A stretch of DNA of 64,000 bases from an uncultured Candidatus Nitrosopumilus sp. (GTDB lineage Archaea > Thermoproteota > Nitrososphaeria > Nitrososphaerales > Nitrosopumilaceae), in assembly GCA_905616385.1 (NCBI GenBank), contig CAJQSS010000004.1, forward strand, positions 40,185 to 104,184, in the 5' to 3' direction. Below, piece by piece: positions 1-63,711 of this stretch. The notes below the pieces were generated by a model. That model was not told where the DNA came from, searched no databases, and saw only the letters and a list, made by a program, of their open reading frames with translations. Position numbers and translations under genes: made by a program. Numbering within the stretch: the stretch's first letter is position 1; the number at the start of each line of letters is the position of its first letter.

Positions 1-618
1 TTCTATGATTCTATACAATGATCCTGGTTCATGCTTTATTGAAAAAATAATTGAAGTTTTATCATTACCAGTTTCTAAAACCTCATTTTTAGATAATATC
101 AAAAATCTAGTATAGTTATTGAGATTATTTGCAATATTTTCAGCAATTATGGGCATATTGTAAATTGATGCAGCTGCTTTACTGGCAATACATGCACAAT
201 TAATTTTATTTAATTCTTGGATAATTTTTACACTTCCTGCTGTATCGTAAGTGGGAATTGTTTTCATAGTATTTTTTTCAATAAAATTTCTACATTGACC
301 TAATGCCTGTGGATGTGAATACACTGTATCAATTTCTTCTATTTTACCAAATCCAATTAAACAATGTTCTATTCTGTGATATGTTTCCCCAGTTGCATTT
401 AGATCTGTTGAATATAATAAATCATAACTTTCTCCTACACTTCCTTCTAGTGAATTTTCTACAGGTAAAATTGAAAATTCTGTAATATCGTTAGATGTAT
501 TTTCTAAAATTTCTGCAAATGTTGCAAGTGGAATTGTTTTGATATCATTTTTGAAAAAGGATTTTGCTGCGGCTTCACTATATGCACCTCGTTCACCTTG
601 GAACGAAACATTTTTCAT
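1..618 (-). CDS. pheA: Prephenate dehydratase, C-terminus cut by window edge
   Basis: This enzyme converts prephenate to phenylpyruvate in phenylalanine synthesis. I translated the edge-truncated minus frame by hand: it starts MKNVSFQGERGAYSEAAAKS, the standard opening of the prephenate dehydratase catalytic domain (FQGxxGAYSE). It continues through a VENSLEGSV segment and a conserved SHPQALGQC segment. The frame is still open at base 1, about 206 codons in; the frame has just entered the start of the expected C-terminal ACT regulatory domain (the segment with FSIKHEPGSL), and the rest lies outside the window. The start ATG is at 618. The neighbouring csl4 gene ends 5 bases upstream in the same direction, so the two are probably co-transcribed. 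Family call is firm; the missing end prevents judging phenylalanine feedback control. Confidence 0.93.
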   Translation of the reverse strand, partial: MKNVSFQGERGAYSEAAAKSFFKNDIKTIPLATFAEILENTSNDITEFSILPVENSLEGSVGESYDLLYSTDLNATGETYHRIEHCLIGFGKIEEIDTVYSHPQALGQCRNFIEKNTMKTIPTYDTAGSVKIIQELNKINCACIASKAAASIYNMPIIAENIANNLNNYTRFLILSKNEVLETGNDKTSIIFSIKHEPGSLYRIIE

Positions 619-14995: not shown

Positions 14996-15795
14996 CCTTA
15001 ACTAAAAGAATTATTCCTTGTTTAGATGTAAAAAATGGTAGAGTTGTTAAAGGATTAAATTTTGAATCCATTAAAGATGCAGGAGATCCAGTAGAGTTAG
15101 CTGCTAAATATAGTAATGAAGGTGCTGATGAACTTGTATTTCTTGATATTACAGCTTCTGATGAACAACGAGAAACAATTAAAGAATTAGTTCGTAAAGT
15201 TGCTTCTGTAATTAATATTCCATTTACTGTTGGTGGTGGTGTGAAATCAATTGATGATGCTAGAAATATTTTACTTAATGGAGCTGATAAAGTCGGGGTT
15301 AATACTGCAGCAATAAAAAATCCGCCACTAATTACTGAATTAATGACATTATTTGGAAGACAATGTGTTGTAGTTGCAATTGATGCTAAAAGAAATTATG
15401 AACTTAAAGAAAATGTAAATATATTTTCAGAAGATGATAAAAAATTCTGGTTTGAAGTTTTTATTTTTGGAGGAAAGCAAAAAACTGGTATTGATGTAAT
15501 TACATGGGCAAAAGAAGCTGAAAAATTAGGTGCTGGCGAAATTTTACTTACTAGTATTGATGCAGATGGTACAAAAAATGGATATGATGTTTTACTCACA
15601 AAATCCATTGTTGATTCTGCATCTATTCCTGTAATTGCATCTGGTGGATGTGGAAAACCTGATGATATGGTGGAAATTTTTGAAAAATCAAATGTTGATG
15701 CTGCACTTGCTGCCTCAATTTTTCACTATGAAACTCATGGTGTGAAAGGCGTCAAATCTTTTCTTAAAGAGAAAAAAATCTCTGTAAGATTATAA
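14992..15795 (+). CDS. hisF: Imidazole glycerol phosphate synthase, cyclase subunit
   Basis: Barrel enzyme that uses ammonia from HisH to form imidazoleglycerol phosphate and AICAR. It starts [19 protein letters not shown], where the aspartate of CLDVKNG is one catalytic acid; the second is in [15 protein letters not shown] (about residue 190). Phosphate loops are [13 protein letters not shown] and [14 protein letters not shown]. 267 residues fits the family (about 250); the slight excess is a short insertion near 140-150 ([11 protein letters not shown]). It follows hisA with a four-base overlap. A 23-base gap separates it from hisI. Confidence 0.95.
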
Positions 15796-15818
15796 TATCT
15801 AAGTTATAGATAGAAATT

Positions 15819-16145
15819 ATGAACAAATCTATTGATGAAATTGATTTTGAAAAAAGTGGTGGTCTTGTACCTGTAATTGTTCAAGATGCAAATACAAAAG
15901 ACGTTCTTACACTTGCTTATACAAACAAGGAATCTTTAGAATTGGCAAAAAAAACTGGCAATTCTTGGTTTTGGAGTCGTTCCAGAAATAAACTTTGGAT
16001 GAAAGGTGAAGAGTCTGGTAATACCCAAAAAATTAAAGAAATACTAGTTGATTGTGATTCTGATGCAATAATTTATCTTGTTGAACCATCAGGACCTGCA
16101 TGTCATACTGGTGAAAAAGTTTGCTTTCATAACGAACTAAAATAA
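15819..16145 (+). CDS. hisI: Phosphoribosyl-AMP cyclohydrolase
   Basis: Opens the adenine ring of phosphoribosyl-AMP. The 108-residue protein has the standard blocks: ANTKDVLTLAYTNKESL, WFWSRSRNKLWMKGEESGN, the metal site LVDCDSDAI (Cys and Asp residues) and a second cysteine cluster GPACHTGEKVCFH. It is a single-domain HisI; the phosphoribosyl-ATP pyrophosphatase HisE that normally works just before it is neither fused nor elsewhere in the window. It is the last gene of the his operon and converges with the unknown gene at 16147. Confidence 0.94.
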   Translation: MNKSIDEIDFEKSGGLVPVIVQDANTKDVLTLAYTNKESLELAKKTGNSWFWSRSRNKLWMKGEESGNTQKIKEILVDCDSDAIIYLVEPSGPACHTGEKVCFHNELK

Positions 16146-16146
16146 T

Positions 16147-16614
16147 TTAGCAAACTGGTTCAAATATTCTATCATCCCATGAACTAACTTGGTTAAGAAT
16201 TTCAAAATTTATGTCTTCATATTGTGTTCCTGAAAATCTGACTATCCAATTACCTGCAATATCATCCATTGAACATATTCCAGTGTACATCTGAAGTCTT
16301 GGTTCAAAATAATAATTAAATTGTTGTTTACTCATTCCATCAAATGACAATTTGATGTATATTTTATGATGTGTATCATTTATTGGTCGTAAAAATTTTA
16401 TTGTTCCTTTATCATCAAATTTTAAACCGTCTGTATCAAGAAAAATTTTTTCACCTACATTGTATTGAGCTTTATCAATTGCAAACGGCCCTGATCCTAT
16501 CCATTTTTCTTCTATTTCATTTTTAGTTGTTTCTTCATTGGAAGTAAATATGATTAGTGCTGCAATAATTATTATTATAATTATTATTGGAATTATTATT
16601 TTAACATTAACCAT
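16147..16614 (-). CDS. Membrane-anchored hypothetical protein
   Basis: An unrecognised 155-residue protein. The first 25 residues are an extreme isoleucine-rich membrane segment (IPIIIIIIIIAALIIF), encoded by a low-complexity ATT repeat. A soluble beta-rich domain follows that should be extracellular (GEKIFLDTDGLKFDDKGTIKF; IYIKLSFDGMSK), with two cysteines near the end (GICSMDD and the C-terminal VC). It resembles other Thaumarchaeota N-anchored small proteins in layout only. It ends one base from the hisI stop and faces the threonine synthase gene across 163 bases. Confidence 0.65.
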   Translation of the reverse strand: MVNVKIIIPIIIIIIIIAALIIFTSNEETTKNEIEEKWIGSGPFAIDKAQYNVGEKIFLDTDGLKFDDKGTIKFLRPINDTHHKIYIKLSFDGMSKQQFNYYFEPRLQMYTGICSMDDIAGNWIVRFSGTQYEDINFEILNQVSSWDDRIFEPVC

Positions 16615-16723
16615 GTAAACTGACCTTTAAAAAATCTCTAAAAACTTTACTATTTTCAAAATTGATTACCTATTCTTCGTCTAATTCATTCTCAAGTTAT
16701 ATTATATTTTTCTAGACTAAAAT

Positions 16724-16772
16724 TAAGTATTACTTAACTTGGTATTAGGATTTTTTATCTACGTTTGAGGGG
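16724..16772 (+). promoter_or_regulatory. Leader of thrC: inverted repeat and Shine-Dalgarno
   Basis: In the 163-base gap ahead of threonine synthase, an AT-rich TATA-like stretch lies at about 16697-16710. It is followed by the inverted repeat TAAGT-ATT-ACTTA at 16724-16736 and by a strong Shine-Dalgarno GAGGGG at 16767-16772, five bases before the TTG at 16778. A real leader with a ribosome site contrasts with the leaderless genes elsewhere in the window. The repeat could be an operator; that is inference. Confidence 0.45.
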
Positions 16773-16777
16773 AATCA

Positions 16778-17998
16778 TTGATCTTGGCTAGAACATCATT
16801 ACAATGTAGGGAGTGTAAAAAAGAGTATGAAACTGCTTTCAAGTATGTTTGTGATGACTGTTTTGGTCCACTAGATGTAAAATATGACTTTCCAACTTTA
16901 ACAAAAGAAACATTTGCTAATCGTGAGCAGACATACTGGCGATATTTTGAATTACTTCCAATAGAAAATAAATCAAATATTGTTAGTATTGGAGCTGGAA
17001 TGACTCCACTTACTAAAGCTGATAATCTTGGAAAAAAATTAGGACTAAACAATCTTTACATAAAAAATGATTCTGTAAATCCCACATTTTCATTTAAAGA
17101 TCGTCCAGCTGGTGTTGCAATATCTAAAGCAAAAGAATTTGGATTAACTGCAGTTGGTTGTGCATCTACTGGTAATTTAGCATCTGCAACTGCAGCACAT
17201 GCAGCTAGAGCTGGATTACCGTGTCATGTATTTGCACCAAGTAATATTGAAATGGCAAAAATTGCTCAAGCATTATCTTACGGTGCAAATTACATTGCAG
17301 TTGATGGAACTTATGATGATGCAAATAGAATTGCAGCACAGATTGGTGATAGTAAAGGAATTGGTATAGTAAATATTAACATGCGTTCACACTATGTAGA
17401 AGGTTCTAAAACATTTTCTTATGAAGTTGCAGAGCAACTTGATTGGCAAGTACCTGATCAATTAATAATTCCTGTAGGAAGTGGTGCAATGCTTAATGCA
17501 ATTTGTAAAGGATTTGAAGAATTACAAACTGTATCATTACTTGATGATGTATCTAACATGCATATGATTGCAGCACAACCACATGGATGTGCACCAATTG
17601 TTGATGCTTTTAAGAAAAATTCTAAAGAAGTTATTCCTGTTGAAAATCCTGACACTGTAGCTAAGAGTTTAGCAATTGGTGATCCTGGAGATGGAAGATA
17701 TGTTTTGAAAAGATTACAACAGTATAATGGATTTGCAGAAGAATGTAATGATCAAGAAATTTTAGATGCAATTCTTCTTTTGGCTAAAACTGAAGGAATA
17801 TTTACTGAACCAGCTGGTGGTGTATCTATTTCTATATTACAAAAAATGGTTGAACAGGGTAAAATTGATAAAAATGATAAAGTTGTATGTTATGTTACAG
17901 GTAATGGTCTCAAAGCAACTGAATCCATTATGCAAGTATTACCACAGCCAACTATTTACAAGCCAAACATTAATGAAATTTCGGCGGTAGTTCAATAA
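16778..17998 (+). CDS. thrC: Threonine synthase
   Basis: PLP-dependent fold-type II enzyme making threonine from O-phosphohomoserine. An N-terminal zinc-like cysteine quartet (CRECKKEYETAFKYVCDDC) precedes the catalytic domain. The Schiff-base lysine is in NPTFSFKDRPAGVA (about residue 106), the cofactor-binding SCTSN-like loop is GCASTGNLASATAAHAA, and the phosphate-binding glycines are PVGSGAMLNAI. 406 residues is usual. TTG 16778 is chosen because GAGGGG lies five bases upstream; TTG 16784 (MARTSLQC) is also possible. The next gene follows after one base and encodes a ubiquitin-like/E1-like fusion, so the two are surely co-transcribed. Related PLP enzymes can use protein thiocarboxylates, but nothing in the sequence proves that here. 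Confidence 0.9.
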   Translation: MILARTSLQCRECKKEYETAFKYVCDDCFGPLDVKYDFPTLTKETFANREQTYWRYFELLPIENKSNIVSIGAGMTPLTKADNLGKKLGLNNLYIKNDSVNPTFSFKDRPAGVAISKAKEFGLTAVGCASTGNLASATAAHAARAGLPCHVFAPSNIEMAKIAQALSYGANYIAVDGTYDDANRIAAQIGDSKGIGIVNINMRSHYVEGSKTFSYEVAEQLDWQVPDQLIIPVGSGAMLNAICKGFEELQTVSLLDDVSNMHMIAAQPHGCAPIVDAFKKNSKEVIPVENPDTVAKSLAIGDPGDGRYVLKRLQQYNGFAEECNDQEILDAILLLAKTEGIFTEPAGGVSISILQKMVEQGKIDKNDKVVCYVTGNGLKATESIMQVLPQPTIYKPNINEISAVVQ

Positions 17999-17999
17999 T

Positions 18000-19322
18000 A
18001 TGGCAAATATCACATTTACAATTCCATCTGTACTAAATGCAGGTGGTGGTGAGAAAAAAACTGAAATCTCAGCAGATTCTTTACAAGATGCATTTCTAAA
18101 AATATCTGAACTTTTAGGCGATGATTTTAAGCGTAGAGTATTAGAAGCTGATAATACACCTCGTTCTTTGATTAATATTTACATTAATGGTAAAAATGCA
18201 AAATTTTCTAGTGGTATAGAAACTACTCTAAAAGATGGTGATGAGGTGTATATTTTACCAGCAGTTGCTGGAGGTTCAGAAGATCTTTCTTCAAAAGAAC
18301 TAGACAGATATTCACGTCAAGTAATGCTTGAAGAAATTGGATACAATGGACAACTAAAATTAAAAAATTCTAAAGTTTGTGTTGTTGGAACTGGTGGATT
18401 AGGACATCCAATTATTACAAGATTAACTGCAATGGGAGTTGGTACATTACGAATTGTTGACAGAGATGTAATTGAATTATCTAATTTACATAGACAAACA
18501 TTATTTGATGAATCAGATGTTGGACAAGTAAAAGTTGAAGCAGCAGCAAAAAAATTAAAAAAATTAAATTCGGAATGTAACATTGAAGCTTTAACTGTTT
18601 CTGTAAATGATTACACTGCACTTGAAGTTGTAGACGGATGTGATGTTGTAATTGATGCACTTGATTCAGTTAATGCAAGATATGCATTAAACAAAGCTTG
18701 TGTTAAATTTGGAATTCCATTTGTTACAGGAGCTGCAGTTGGAACATCAGGACAAGCATTTACAATTTTACCAAAAGAATCTGCATGTTACTATTGCATG
18801 TTTCCTGCACTTGATGAAGATACAATGCCAACATGTAGTATTGAAGGAGTACATCCATCAATACTTTCTATTGTCGGTGGAATAGAAGTTGCAGAAGCTG
18901 TAAAAATAATTACTGGAAAGAAACCAAATTTATCAAATAGAATTTTACATATTGATTTAGAAAATTTAGATTTTAACAGTACAAAAACATTCAGAGCTGA
19001 AGAGTGTCCAATTTGTGGAACTGGAAAATTAAAAGTTGTAGAAAAACAAGAATTAATTTTAGAAGAATTATGTGGAAGAAATAGAGGCAAGAGAACTTAT
19101 TCTATTACCCCAACTGAAACTTTTAATTTAGATTCTGCAAGTGTTTCTGCAATTGCAAAAGAAAAAGGATTTCTAGTTGAGAATTTAGGTGACTTGGGAC
19201 TATCTATGAGAACAAATGATCTTTCTGTTAATTTTATGAGGCGTGGTTCTGCAGTAGTTGTTGGTTCAAAAGATGAATCTGATGCAATTACACTTTACAA
19301 AACGCTATTATCGAAAATTTAG
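18000..19322 (+). CDS. MoaD/ThiS-like ubiquitin-fold domain fused to E1-like adenylyltransferase (ThiF/MoeB)
   Basis: A 440-residue two-part protein. Residues 1-92 form a MoaD/ThiS-like domain ending in PAVAGG, the glycine pair (91-92) that in free sulfur carriers must be the C-terminus to be adenylated. From residue 93 an E1-like domain begins (SSKELDRYSRQVMLEEIG). It has the nucleotide loop VGTGGLGHP (about 129-137), the arginine of LSNLHRQTLF, zinc cysteine pairs CYYC and CPIC, and a candidate catalytic cysteine in PTCSIEGVHPS. The last 80 residues form an extra small domain I do not recognise. Roles could be molybdopterin, thiamine, tRNA thiolation or amino-acid sulfur transfer. The glycine pair is internal, so either processing or an unusual mechanism is needed. 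It directly follows thrC. Confidence 0.87.
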   Translation: MANITFTIPSVLNAGGGEKKTEISADSLQDAFLKISELLGDDFKRRVLEADNTPRSLINIYINGKNAKFSSGIETTLKDGDEVYILPAVAGGSEDLSSKELDRYSRQVMLEEIGYNGQLKLKNSKVCVVGTGGLGHPIITRLTAMGVGTLRIVDRDVIELSNLHRQTLFDESDVGQVKVEAAAKKLKKLNSECNIEALTVSVNDYTALEVVDGCDVVIDALDSVNARYALNKACVKFGIPFVTGAAVGTSGQAFTILPKESACYYCMFPALDEDTMPTCSIEGVHPSILSIVGGIEVAEAVKIITGKKPNLSNRILHIDLENLDFNSTKTFRAEECPICGTGKLKVVEKQELILEELCGRNRGKRTYSITPTETFNLDSASVSAIAKEKGFLVENLGDLGLSMRTNDLSVNFMRRGSAVVVGSKDESDAITLYKTLLSKI

Positions 19323-19445
19323 CCTGTAAATATTTCATGAATCCATAGTAAATGTTATAAAATATAGTTTTTTGATCTAAATATTGAAACAAATTATATG
19401 AAATATCCTTAAATCATGTAAAAATAATGAAAAATAAGAAAAATA

Positions 19446-19503
19446 TGTGAAAAAATCACAAGAAATGGTCTATTTGTGGACAAATCGTCCATTAGGCTTA
19501 AAT
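19446..19503 (+). promoter_or_regulatory. S-layer promoter: two inverted repeats and TATA box
   Basis: The 209-base gap before the S-layer gene holds two short inverted repeats, TGTGA-AAAAA-TCACA at 19446-19460 and ATTTGT-GG-ACAAAT at 19472-19485. A TATA-like GCTTAAATA follows at about 19496-19504, around 28-36 bases before the ATG at 19532. The repeats lie immediately upstream of the TATA box, where an activator or repressor could bind. Whether they act is inference. Confidence 0.5.
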
Positions 19504-19531
19504 ACAAATTTTTGAAAAAAATATCAATAAC

Positions 19532-22500
19532 ATGAATAACGAAATAGGACGTAAATTAACTAGTCTTACGCTAATGACAATAATGTTAGCTGGTGGTATG
19601 GTTATTGCCGCACCTTCAATGGTGCCAGAAGCCGCAGCCGCTGGTCAACTTTATGTCTCCGCAGAAAACGCACAATTCGGAAACCTCTTTGGAGGTGGTT
19701 CAGTTGTTGAAGTAATTGTAAAAGATCCAAACAGAGCAGATACAGATGTAGCAGAAGCCGAACCAACTGTCTACGTAGATAACAACACACTACGTATGGC
19801 ACAAGGTGTCGATGGTTATTGGTACGCATACATTGGAGCCTATGGCTACATTGACCAAAGTGGTACAGAAGACTACGATAGTACAAACAACAATTTGGAC
19901 TATGGGTATGAAGCTTCTGATACTGTAACACCATGGAAAGCCACATTTATCGGACAACACCATGCAGGTACTGCAAGTGGTGCAGGAGCCGGTTTAGGCC
20001 AAGCATTAGGAGCCACGACATCAACTGGCGCTTCTACTACTTTGTTAGGTGCTGCTGCTGGAGTTATTACAAATCCGCCAACGTTATCAGATTACAACAG
20101 CACCAACAATGTTGGTGGTGATCCGGTAACGATGAACGCAGATCAATCTTCAACTGTAGGTCAAATCGGTATTAATAATACCGAATGGCCTTTCATACAA
20201 CTGTATGACTTCACACAAGGAGCTTTCGATATTGTACTTTCACAAGCCGGACAAGATGAAGTAGTCACATTAGACTATGATTCTACAGGATTAGATGGCT
20301 TTGCAGGAATTGAAGCAGATAGATTATCAGCAACCCAAGGTTCTGATGTCCATCTAACAATTTCTGATCAAGCCTTGAACATCGACCCAACCAATGAAGA
20401 CGTTGTTGTCTTCCTTGTAACTGGTACTCAAACCATGAGTTTTACTAATGGTACAGCACCAAATACAACTACAGAAGGCCTTGCACAAAATGTAGAAACT
20501 GGCGATAAAGGTTTCTATCAAGCAGAAACAATGGGCTTTGGTGATAACGGAGTTTTGAAAATTACTTACGACGCCAATGGAGTTGGAACAAACGTATTTA
20601 CAGATACAGTCACAGCTGACGACGCTTACAACGACAATTACCTTGTCTTCTTTGAAGGTGGCGACAGCACTGGTGTATTTTCAAATACCGATGATAATTC
20701 AGAATCTAATCTAGAAGTCAACTCAGCAGCACTAAGAGGAACTACTGCAACTATCGATTATAACGATAGTGGAGTATCATTCGTTGTATCAAATGACTTT
20801 GGTACACTCGATATGGATGAAGCCTCTGTTGGTGATGAGTGGAATTCCGGTGAAAGTCTAGCAGTAACACTTGTAGATCAAGACTTAAATAAAAACACAT
20901 TATCCGACGAAAGCATGACACTAACAACACACCAAACGTTAATTCCATCGTTGCAGATAGGTTCTCCAATTACATTGGAAACCACTTCAACATTTGAACA
21001 AGCAACAATGACCTGTGGTACATTTAACAAAATTTGTACTATAGCCTCTGTACCAGCTGGGGATCTATATGATAACCACGCTGGAACTGTTCAATTAACG
21101 TTGCCAGATACTGTAGCAGACTTTAGAGCAATCTCTGATGGCGCATCATTTGTTTACTTAAACTTTGATTTGTCAGAAGTAGCCACCTCACTTGGAACTA
21201 TAATTCTAACTGACGGTGACACTCTATTGACTGTCGCAGCAGTAAACTCTGCAAATTTGGGATTTGTCCAATTAGGTGCAATTAGCGCCGTTGGTACAGC
21301 AGGTATCACAGAAACTGCCAACCTAGCAATCAATTTCACAGAAACTGATACTACGCTAGCAACAGTTGACGATTTCTTGTATGCTGATATCTTCACCTTT
21401 GGTGATAGAGTCAACAATGCAATGTATCGTTTCCTCTTAGAGGAATCTGATGATAACACTGCATCTTTCGAAGGTGATGTTGAATTTGTTATGCTCAACC
21501 AAATCAATAATGATTTGGCTGGTACATACAGCGGCATTACAGCAACATCTGATAGTATCACCATCATTGTCCATGAGGACTTAACTGATGAGGATTCACC
21601 AAGAATCAATTATTTGGATCTTGGATCAGATGGTGTATCAACTCAAATTGCTGATCAAGTAGCAGCTCCATCACACAGTGGTGTAGTTACATTTGATTCA
21701 GCCAATTACAAAACAGCTGATACAGTAACTGTAACGATTGACGATCAGGATTTGAATACCGATAGTTCATTACTTGATGTATACATTACATCACAAAGTG
21801 ATCATGTCGGTGAGAATGCTGCCTCTTCATCCGCTTATGTAATGGATATAACTTTCAATGATGTTCTATGGCAAGATGGTTTGGATCAAGTCGGTACTGC
21901 CGGCGTTCCTGACGATGGCTTGCGTCACTCTGGCTTTACATTAGTAGAGACAGGTGTTGATTCAGGTATCTTCACAGGTTCCTTCCAAGTGCCATCAACT
22001 TACTATGGTAACAACGCAACACAAACAACAACAGGAACAGATATCGAGGTCAACTACAACGACCATCGTGATGCTTCTGGTGAAACCATAGAAGTTGGTG
22101 CCGGTGCAAGCATTAATGCTAACACTGGTTCTGTATCATTTGATAGAAATGTATATCCTGTACCATGGGGTAATGAAACAGACGGTGAGCGATTCTTATT
22201 GCACGGAACTGCAGTAGAACCAGCAACCACCGCTGCATTGAGTCTTGCTCAAGGTAATGTAACAGTACACATCAGTATTACTGATGCTGATTACGATGTC
22301 TCCGCATTTGGTGAAGACAGCATCTCAGATACAACAGTCACTCTCAACATTGAGAGAGGCTCTGTAGAGAAGCTAGTCGCCACATTCGGAAACACTGCTA
22401 ATCCAATTGTCGAAACATCTCCAACATCTGGTGTGTTTGAGTATGACGCAACTGTAGGATTTAGATCTGGACCAACTACAAACTGTCCAGCTATATTCAC

Positions 22501-61907: not shown

Positions 61908-62471
61908 ATGGCACAGATGCCCGCATTAATTCCAAAAGAAGTTGAGATCCAGAGACTAAAGAAAATCTGGCTCATCGTCATAGCTATGGGATCCACTGCA
62001 GCATCAGTCGAAGTTGATAACTTCGTTGATGGTTCTTTGCATCAAACCTCTATCAGAGATAGTGCATTTACACCAGCACACTGGTGGCTATACTCTCACT
62101 TCATCACATTACCACTTGGATGGGGAGCAGCAGCAATCTATGATAGAAAAATACCTGTTCTTAGAGGTCCTAATAATTCAATGAACACTGGTTTAAAGAT
62201 GACCATTCTTGGTTACTTAGCAACTATGTTTACAATTGGAATCAATGAGATGTGGCATTTCTGGTTTGTAGAAGAAATATTTGCAGTACCAAATCACTGG
62301 ATGTTTAACATGGGAGTTGTAGTAGCTTTCATGGGAGCACTAGCATACGTAGTTAGAGTATATGCTCGACTTGTAGAACTAGGTGCAGAAACTCCTGGTG
62401 AGAATCCATATGTTGCAGAAATGTACAAGATGGCCTTAGAAGGTAAATTGTACAGTAGAAGCATTCCATAG
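61908..62471 (+). CDS. amoC: Ammonia monooxygenase subunit C
   Basis: Integral AMO subunit of 187 residues with about five helices (for example IWLIVIAMGSTAASVEV and ILGYLATMFTIGI). The likely copper-site residues are Asp and His in VDNFVDGSLHQ and AFTPAHWWLYSHF (about residues 38-64). ATG 61908 gives MAQMPALIPKEVEIQRL. It is followed by amoX and amoA on the same strand; this order amoC-amoX-amoA with divergent amoB is the marine archaeal arrangement as I recall it. Confidence 0.96.
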   Translation: MAQMPALIPKEVEIQRLKKIWLIVIAMGSTAASVEVDNFVDGSLHQTSIRDSAFTPAHWWLYSHFITLPLGWGAAAIYDRKIPVLRGPNNSMNTGLKMTILGYLATMFTIGINEMWHFWFVEEIFAVPNHWMFNMGVVVAFMGALAYVVRVYARLVELGAETPGENPYVAEMYKMALEGKLYSRSIP

Positions 62472-62592
62472 ACAAAACGTGCAAAAGCACACTTTTTTCT
62501 ATTTTTCTTATTTTCTCTAAGTCTGTCTGATCGTGCTGAAATCGTCCCTTGAAGAAAGATTTAATAGGATTCTGAATCAGATTAATTGCATA

Positions 62593-62955
62593 ATGACTCT
62601 TCCTAAAGGATTCGGTTCTGGCGGCGCTGGTGGATCATCAAGTGCCGACGTTGAACGAATGATTGGACGACGCGTTGAAAATATGACTGGTATGATTACC
62701 CTTTCATTCATCGCAGCATGGTTAGCAACTTTTGGTGGAACTGCAGCAGGATACTTCTATTATCCATGGGCATATCCAACCCCAAGTGGTCACTTTGCAT
62801 TCATCGTACTAACAATCATTGAGGCAATAGGTTACATCTTCTGTGTTAAAGTAATGGAAGAAGGTTCCAACAAAAATAGCAATGGTTTAGTTGCTGGTGT
62901 CGTAGGTGCTGTCACAATAGGTACAATTATGATAGCATTATTCGTTGGAAAATAG
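62593..62955 (+). CDS. amoX: Archaeal AMO-associated protein AmoX
   Basis: A 120-residue membrane protein always found with archaeal amo genes. It begins MTLPKGFGSGGAGGSSSADV, with a Gly/Ser-rich soluble start and then three hydrophobic segments (LSFIAAWLATFGGTAAGYF; FIVLTIIEAIGYIFC; VAGVVGAVTIGTIMIALF). ATG 62593 is chosen since the longer frame from 62533 adds residues with no sequence sense. It lies between amoC and amoA. The protein is thought to be an AMO subunit; a specific role is not visible from sequence. Confidence 0.92.
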   Translation: MTLPKGFGSGGAGGSSSADVERMIGRRVENMTGMITLSFIAAWLATFGGTAAGYFYYPWAYPTPSGHFAFIVLTIIEAIGYIFCVKVMEEGSNKNSNGLVAGVVGAVTIGTIMIALFVGK

Positions 62956-63030
62956 ATAAAATAACCTCAAATTACTTCTTTTTAATTTTAATTTTCTTCA
63001 AATATGTCGATCTTCATCATACTCTAAAAT

Positions 63031-63038
63031 TTTATATA
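63031..63038 (+). promoter_or_regulatory. TATA box of amoA
   Basis: TTTATATA at 63031-63038 lies 23-30 bases ahead of the amoA ATG at 63061, so amoA is probably also transcribed alone and leaderless. Confidence 0.6.
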
Positions 63039-63060
63039 CAGACCTTTTCATCAACTTCTT

Positions 63061-63711
63061 ATGGTCTGGTTAAGACGATGTACACACTACTTATTCATAG
63101 TAGTTGTTGCAGTTAACTCAACTCTGTTAACAATTAATGCAGGAGATTACATCTTTTACACTGACTGGGCTTGGACTTCGTTTACGGTATTTTCAATATC
63201 GCAAACTTTGATGCTTATCGTAGGTGCATGTTATTATCTTACGTTTACTGGCGTTCCAGGCACAGCAACGTACTACGCTCTAATTATGACAGTATACACA
63301 TGGATAGCAAAAGGTGCATGGTTTGCACTCGGATACCCATATGACTTCATTGTAACTCCAGTTTGGTTACCATCAGCAATGCTTTTGGATTTAGTCTACT
63401 GGGCAACAAAGAAGAACAAGCACTCCTTGATACTGTTTGGCGGCGTACTGGTAGGAATGTCTTTACCATTATTCAACATGGTAAACCTGATAACAGTAGC
63501 GGACCCGCTTGAAACGGCATTCAAATATCCAAGACCAACATTGCCACCATATATGACACCAATAGAACCCCAGGTAGGTAAGTTCTATAACAGTCCAGTC
63601 GCGTTGGGCGCAGGTGCAGGTGCAGTTTTGGGATGTACATTTGCAGCACTAGGTTGTAAATTGAACACTTGGACATACAGATGGATGGCCGCATGGTCAA
63701 AGTGGGACTAA
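63061..63711 (+). CDS. amoA: Ammonia monooxygenase subunit A
   Basis: Integral AMO subunit and the standard marker gene of ammonia-oxidising archaea. The 216-residue protein starts MVWLRRCTHYLFIVVVAVNS and has several membrane helices, with blocks DYIFYTDWAWTSFTVF, TYYALIMTVYTWIAKGAWFA and LDLVYWATKKNKHSLIL typical of archaeal AmoA. 216 residues is exactly usual. Ends with TWTYRWMAAWSKWD. Codon use is biased. A T-rich terminator and an inverted repeat follow. Confidence 0.97.
   Translation: MVWLRRCTHYLFIVVVAVNSTLLTINAGDYIFYTDWAWTSFTVFSISQTLMLIVGACYYLTFTGVPGTATYYALIMTVYTWIAKGAWFALGYPYDFIVTPVWLPSAMLLDLVYWATKKNKHSLILFGGVLVGMSLPLFNMVNLITVADPLETAFKYPRPTLPPYMTPIEPQVGKFYNSPVALGAGAGAVLGCTFAALGCKLNTWTYRWMAAWSKWD

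Follow-up and report, generated by a model that had tools for sequence, protein, structure and literature searches.

The 64,000-nucleotide stretch of DNA from an uncultured Candidatus Nitrosopumilus sp. analyzed here (the window) carries an operon that, judging from comparative analysis, probably serves the formation of homocysteine. It would consist of a gene for a MetM-like enzyme, thrC-A, and a gene for a MetO-like sulfur carrier fused to its activating E1 enzyme. In the scheme we favor, the second gene would give rise to a sulfur carrier in precursor form, linked to the E1 that activates it. A JAMM protease from another locus would cut this chain after Gly92, leaving a free carrier that ends with AVAGG and an E1 that starts with Ser93. 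The E1 would adenylate Gly92, sulfur would then be transferred, and the resulting carrier thiocarboxylate would react with O-phosphohomoserine on thrC-A, yielding homocysteine, the precursor of methionine. Cut and protease, thiocarboxylate, substrate and product are the parts of the scheme that we infer; the product is the weakest link and cysteine the main rival. None of the homocysteine enzyme families we tested accounts for homocysteine synthesis in ammonia-oxidizing archaea, and the thrC-A/fusion module offers a concrete answer. The new element is this likely function, not the fusion itself. The features are as follows:

16778..17998, + strand: thrC-A, threonine-synthase-like PLP enzyme, candidate MetM-type homocysteine synthase (PRK08197, PALP, 99/99 fused loci, signature)
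18000..18275, + strand: carrier domain, residues 1-92, ending with AVAGG (ThiS Pfam; CysO by sequence and fold)
18270..18278, + strand: Gly91-Gly92-Ser93, putative cut site after Gly92 (GG in 91/91 and Ser93 in 88/91 distinct fused proteins; free carriers ending here 6/9)
18276..19025, + strand: ThiF/MoeB-type E1 domain, residues 93-342 (ThiF Pfam; MoeB/ThiF alignment)
19047..19319, + strand: C-terminal alpha/beta domain, about residues 350-440 (PRK12475 match to residue 436; modelled strands and helices)

Several consecutive histidine-type genes lie upstream of the pair, and the next ORF downstream, at 19532, encodes 1535 aa. ORFs that we take to resemble ammonia monooxygenase subunits C and A lie at 61908-63711.

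Architecture of the carrier-E1 fusion

The 440-aa ORF (18000..19322, + strand, ATG start) encodes a known architecture. The original prediction did not say whether such a fusion had been described; it is in the literature of 2010 and 2024. Makarova and Koonin named it 'Ubl-E1-TBP in Thaumarchaeota' (PMC2948915, section 3.3), TBP denoting a TBP-like C-terminal domain, and a fusion/fission survey reported 61 of 98 Thaumarchaeota assemblies to carry a MoaD-MoeB fusion (PMC11237513, cluster 356.1), which it treated under molybdopterin synthesis. The protein studied here belongs to this group: domain order and lineage are identical to those given in the accessible text of both papers, and a ThiS/MoaD N-terminal domain and a ThiF/MoeB core directly behind it are both present; the separate alpha/beta domain modelled at the C-terminus may correspond to the TBP-like one. 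Bacterial Ubl-ThiF fusions were covered by Iyer et al. (2006; PMC1779556), who suggested, in the part of the paper available, that JAB proteins might free the fused carriers. The accessible portions of PMC2948915 and PMC11237513 draw no link to a ThrC-like gene, and a literature search, covering mainly open-access work, retrieved no paper connecting the fusion with such a gene or with homocysteine. Our analysis adds to these two papers the conservation of the internal Gly-Gly, the split forms ending at GG and the joint loss with thrC-A.

As originally proposed, residues 1-92 resemble a MoaD/ThiS carrier ending with AGG. Residues 49-92 match ThiS (PF02597) above cut-off (E 1.2e-8), and a sequence search places residues 3-92 on CysO from M. 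tuberculosis (3dwg_C, E 4.8e-11). Modelled alone (mean pLDDT 88), this part adopts the ubiquitin fold on which the original prediction depended, CysO being the best solved match (TM 0.81) and SAMP1 the second; the score with the SAMP1 model, 43.2 bits, stays below the cut-off of 60.

The E1-like domain was rightly placed immediately behind the Gly-Gly. Residues 104-337 match ThiF (PF00899, E 2.6e-74), and ThiF and MoeB are nearest by sequence to residues 97-342; the NCBIfam models for ThiF, MoeB and UbaA all score below their cut-offs on the 440-aa protein. In the full-chain model (mean pLDDT 86), the E1 core superimposes on ThiF 1zfn (Z 32.9, rmsd 2.0, 243 residues) and on MoeB 1jw9_B (95..340 versus 3..248, Z 32.6, rmsd 1.7, 236 residues); the fold lists for the full chain are dominated by this core and carry little information on the remaining domains. 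At the junction, ...LPAVAGG(92)-SEDLSSKELDRYSRQ..., residue 1 of MoeB aligns with Ser93 and a linker is practically nil, so that a normal E1 would remain after a cut at Gly92. Catalytic residues (Arg106, GGLG 132-135, Arg165, Lys178, Asp222 and Cys279) and zinc-binding cysteines (263, 266, 336 and 339) are present, and those compared among the 91 distinct fused proteins are invariant save Leu134 (90/91). The stretch of residues 84-108 contains no start codon, which speaks against a separately started E1, and the gene should therefore yield a single chain.

The internal Gly-Gly and its putative cleavage

The fused loci and their relatives make up a set of 116 loci (genomes are labelled G, loci L and families f; Nitrosopumilaceae, family f1, were assigned from the names of close loci). 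The fused form occurs in 99 of these, corresponding to 91 distinct proteins, and LPAVAGG is invariant in all 91, so neither chance nor an assembly artefact accounts for the fusion. The linker that follows Ser93, by contrast, differs among them in both length and sequence. The alignment thus shows the internal Gly-Gly to be under constraint. Three records titled Nitrosomonas and Robiginitomaculum (L039, L057 and L048) contain the archaeal fusion locus with 81-85% identity and are probably mis-binned contigs.

The search for split versions that had originally been proposed was successful: in related families, carrier and E1 are encoded by separate adjacent genes in unchanged order. Of nine distinct free carrier ORFs, six stop exactly at GG (L101, L102, L103, L105, L113 and L115) and three extend 2 to 15 residues beyond it (L116, L111 and L110). 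In a tree of 27 E1 domains, the fused E1s of f1, f2, f3 and f7 form one clade (95/93), in which the split member L111 is nested; we read the latter as a secondary split. The L111 carrier (L111:5242-6673) continues past GG as GGNSKGYGYG, and trimming would be needed there also. Ubl-E1-rhodanese fusions of f9 fall into a different clade (100/99), such that carrier-E1 fusion arose at least twice.

Residue 93 is Ser in 88 of the 91 distinct proteins and Ala or Leu in the other three, and a self-cleavage at the Gly-Ser bond that depends on Ser93 is thus not general. The Ser93 codon is TCN in 86 of 91, and the split locus L113 reads GGA GGA TAG AAG ATG in frame. A replaced stop codon may be a simpler source of Ser93 than self-cleavage, though this is only suggestive. 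At the junctions of L113 (5725-5790) and L101, the terminal Gly-Gly codons (GGAGG) double as a Shine-Dalgarno-like sequence before the E1 start.

Considered alone, a cut after Gly92 appears quite likely from these comparisons, given that free carriers end at GG, that MoeB starts at Ser93 and that JAMM genes are present. Prok-JAB matches were found in 126 of the 131 genomes of the order sample. Four of the five genomes without a match (G036, G049, G055 and G061) belong to f13, in which a stop codon already separates carrier and E1 and this cut would not be needed. G005, a single contig with the fusion, encodes two JAMMs with intact HxHx7SxxD motifs, nearest among solved structures to P. furiosus JAMM1 and AfJAMM. 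The nearby JAB/JAMM protease suggested originally adjoins carrier or E1 in sister lineages: six genomes of other families (G031, G034, G044, G099, G105 and G108) have a JAMM gene directly upstream of one or the other, while none of the window ORFs bears the motif. The order in G099 and G108 is JAMM, fused Ubl-E1-rhodanese, Cys/Met-metabolism PLP enzyme. JAMM genes are also retained in genomes that lost the E1. Two f9 loci, L144 (444-3604) and L145 (1654-4754), hold an independent carrier-E1 fusion in a JAMM/PLP cluster, likewise with Ser after GG.

According to the available text of the respective papers, JAMM enzymes cut a MoaD-MoaE fusion in Deinococcus (PMC8832034) and SAMP/Ub precursors in Caldiarchaeum (PMC6043591), freeing a carrier with an internal GG as we propose here. 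What is cut off in those cases is MoaE or a short tail, whereas it is an E1 in the fusion, the cutting of which we infer. The fusion would thus be well suited to showing whether a cell can make an E1 and its substrate as a single polypeptide and then part the two with a JAMM protease.

PF02597 matches two places in 26 of 27 E1-bearing Nitrosopumilaceae and one in the incomplete source genome (751-kb assembly, about 60% complete). The two places are the fusion and a longer ORF, which is a Ubl-Cgi121 fusion in the two genomes examined. Among the 14 E1-less members, 13 have one place and G020 has none. No free carrier is thus found in Nitrosopumilaceae by PF02597, the only profile used, which divergent carriers could escape. 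Ubl-Cgi121 (L140:2263-3036 and L143:2701-3474) has its own internal HGGSS, which is retained in the E1-less genome G131; its Ubl may therefore serve KEOPS structurally and not as an activated carrier.

thrC-A and the probable formation of homocysteine

The gene thrC-A ends 1 bp before the fusion ORF. It was overlooked in the original prediction, which is partly supported overall, and provides the best explanation of function. The encoded protein matches NCBIfam PRK08197 with 315.5 bits (cut-off 303) as well as Pfam PALP, and is labelled threonine synthase by the annotated families. It is encoded directly upstream in 99/99 fused loci, and 109 of all 116 loci have it upstream in the same orientation; the seven loci without it (L104, L106-L110 and L116) are of the E1-alone, carrier-alone or rhodanese type. 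Split loci have thrC-A and carrier in the same order as fused ones. Among 64 genomes picked to include E1-less ones, 46 have an above-cut-off ThiF match, and all but two of these (44) also encode a close thrC-A (E 2e-141 or better), as opposed to none of the 18 lacking such a match; for Nitrosopumilaceae, the figures are 27/27 with E1 and 0/14 without. A Fisher value computed on the latter figures disregards kinship and adjacency and carries no weight. Since a single deletion may remove both neighbors, and completeness of the E1-less genomes ranges from 81 to 99%, this joint absence is weaker than the counts imply.

A second ThrC of 445 aa is encoded in each of the four genomes looked at (G005, G131, G080 and G149) and remains in the three of them that lack thrC-A (G131, G080 and G149), so thrC-A need not be a threonine synthase. 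By sequence it is a second, divergent ThrC: all 110 rows of the alignment carry the signature NP[TS][FY]SFKDRPA plus STGNL (first residues missing in one row; NPTFSFKDRPA and STGNL in the window), while solved threonine synthases have NPTGSFKDRGM plus STGNT at equivalent places. In Nonomuraea, a homologue (45.6% identity, STGNL) is directly followed, after a gap of 24 bp, by the gene for a carrier of 91 aa that ends with PAVAGG. This Nonomuraea gerenzanensis pair (L149:4974-6509) stems from a record filed as an 11.85 Mb plasmid.

A homocysteine route via MetM and MetO was reportedly described by Hasebe et al. in AEM in 2024, the abstract of which is said to place the pathway in archaea too. 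As far as the accessible part of PMC12172450 describes it, MetM from Streptomyces is a ThrC-related homocysteine synthase, with the carrier gene metO alongside; O-phosphohomoserine is its reported substrate. At the thrC-A loci and in the Nonomuraea pair we likewise see a small carrier with a GG end placed right behind a PLP enzyme of the ThrC kind. The arrangement differs in that the carrier is joined to the E1 here, and the likening of thrC-A to MetM is one by description, not by sequence. In S. albulus, metM is preceded by a SAM riboswitch that is absent in Microcystis (PMC12172450, same part); no Rfam family reached gathering score at 15000-20500 of the window, and two sub-threshold matches (E 0.16 and 0.2) are probably chance hits.

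Other means of making homocysteine were sought in 41 Nitrosopumilaceae. HcyBio was found in none of them, nor was full-length PF01053 (MetY/CGS), which gave weak partial matches only. E1-less genomes thus lack every homocysteine enzyme tested, pointing at methionine import or some unrecognized route. Two observations speak against this reading of the operon: thrC-A scores above NCBIfam threonine synthase cut-offs and may simply make threonine, and G034 and G054 carry the E1 without a close thrC-A. For other autotrophs, too, missing knowledge of how homocysteine is formed has been pointed out (PMC5764234, accessible text). If the proposed function is true, the fusion moves from molybdopterin synthesis, where it is filed, to amino-acid sulfur metabolism, and methionine dependence is predicted in lineages without the module. 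More tentatively, both ThiS-type carriers of Nitrosopumilaceae, the fusion and Ubl-Cgi121, have their Gly-Gly inside the chain and a free carrier gene may be lacking, so that JAMM cutting might be obligatory for homocysteine and methionine synthesis in archaea that are among the most common in the ocean, and lineages having lost thrC-A and fusion (14 of the 41 examined) might be methionine auxotrophs.

Alternative roles of carrier and E1

The original prediction sensibly listed cleavage, action with a separate carrier or a different chemistry as options. The fusion may stay whole, with a structural or regulatory carrier part and an E1 that acts on another carrier, e.g. the released Ubl of Ubl-Cgi121. 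The family indeed possesses this second GG-bearing Ubl, and for bacterial ThiF co-occurring with free ThiS, Iyer et al. (2006) argued, in the available part of their paper, for a separate role of the fused Ubl. We nevertheless consider an uncut fusion unlikely: the full LPAVAGG tail is kept in 91/91, related families have free carriers ending at GG, Ubl-Cgi121 keeps its GG even in the E1-less G131, and PF02597, revealing just the fusion and Ubl-Cgi121 in Nitrosopumilaceae, weakens the option of a separate carrier. Were the freed carrier instead conjugated to proteins in a SAMP-like manner and removed again by JAMM, its SAMP1-like fold and sub-threshold SAMP1 match would find an explanation; operon structure and joint loss indicate thrC-A as partner, and such a modifier role is very improbable. 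Service to an NcsA/TtuA-type enzyme in tRNA thiolation, as for Urm1 or TtuB, is hardly more convincing. This role has been put forward for Ubl-E1 pairs of archaea at large (PMC2948915, accessible text) and TIGR00269 (NcsA/TtuA type) occurs in 60 of 64 genomes, but this family is retained in 16 of 18 E1-less genomes and the constant neighbor is thrC-A. Thiolation is thereby weakened as a sole role, a second role being possible. A MoaD-MoeB function in molybdenum cofactor synthesis, under which the accessible part of PMC11237513 files the fusion, has nothing but the domain names in its favor and is rejected as least probable of all: MoaE is missing from all 41 Nitrosopumilaceae sampled, in a search that was positive in 11/64 genomes and 11/14 controls.

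The main rival retains the carrier thiocarboxylate and changes the product. thrC-A would act like CysM, forming cysteine from O-phosphoserine and a CysO-like carrier. The carrier is closest to CysO in both sequence and fold, replacement at the beta-carbon is the usual chemistry of the PLP fold of thrC-A, and CysK/M-like enzymes are missing in some module-bearing genomes, e.g. G005. On the other hand, the nearest relatives of thrC-A are threonine synthases, whose substrate is O-phosphohomoserine, and CysK/M-like enzymes occur in most of the 41 Nitrosopumilaceae, with and without the module, and in most module-bearing ones. We therefore doubt that cysteine is the product. With the mycobacterial CysM/CysO/Mec+ system, the fusion shares a CysO-closest carrier, a PLP partner and a JAMM in the genome; it differs in that thrC-A is of the threonine-synthase and not the cysteine-synthase type, the JAMM lies outside the operon and the carrier is fused to the E1. 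HcyS/HcyF/HcyD from Wolinella reportedly constitute a protein-thiocarboxylate route to methionine in which carrier, E1 and JAMM serve a homocysteine enzyme. The PLP enzyme there is of the Cys/Met-metabolism type, the same type that adjoins Ubl-E1-rhodanese in L144 and L145 and is absent from Nitrosopumilaceae. Genes for a cysteine synthase, an M67 (JAMM) peptidase, MoaD, a rhodanese and an encapsulin cysteine desulfurase, interrupted by insertion sequences, are assembled on plasmid pACIB of Aliarcobacter cibarius (L150:8695-16001).
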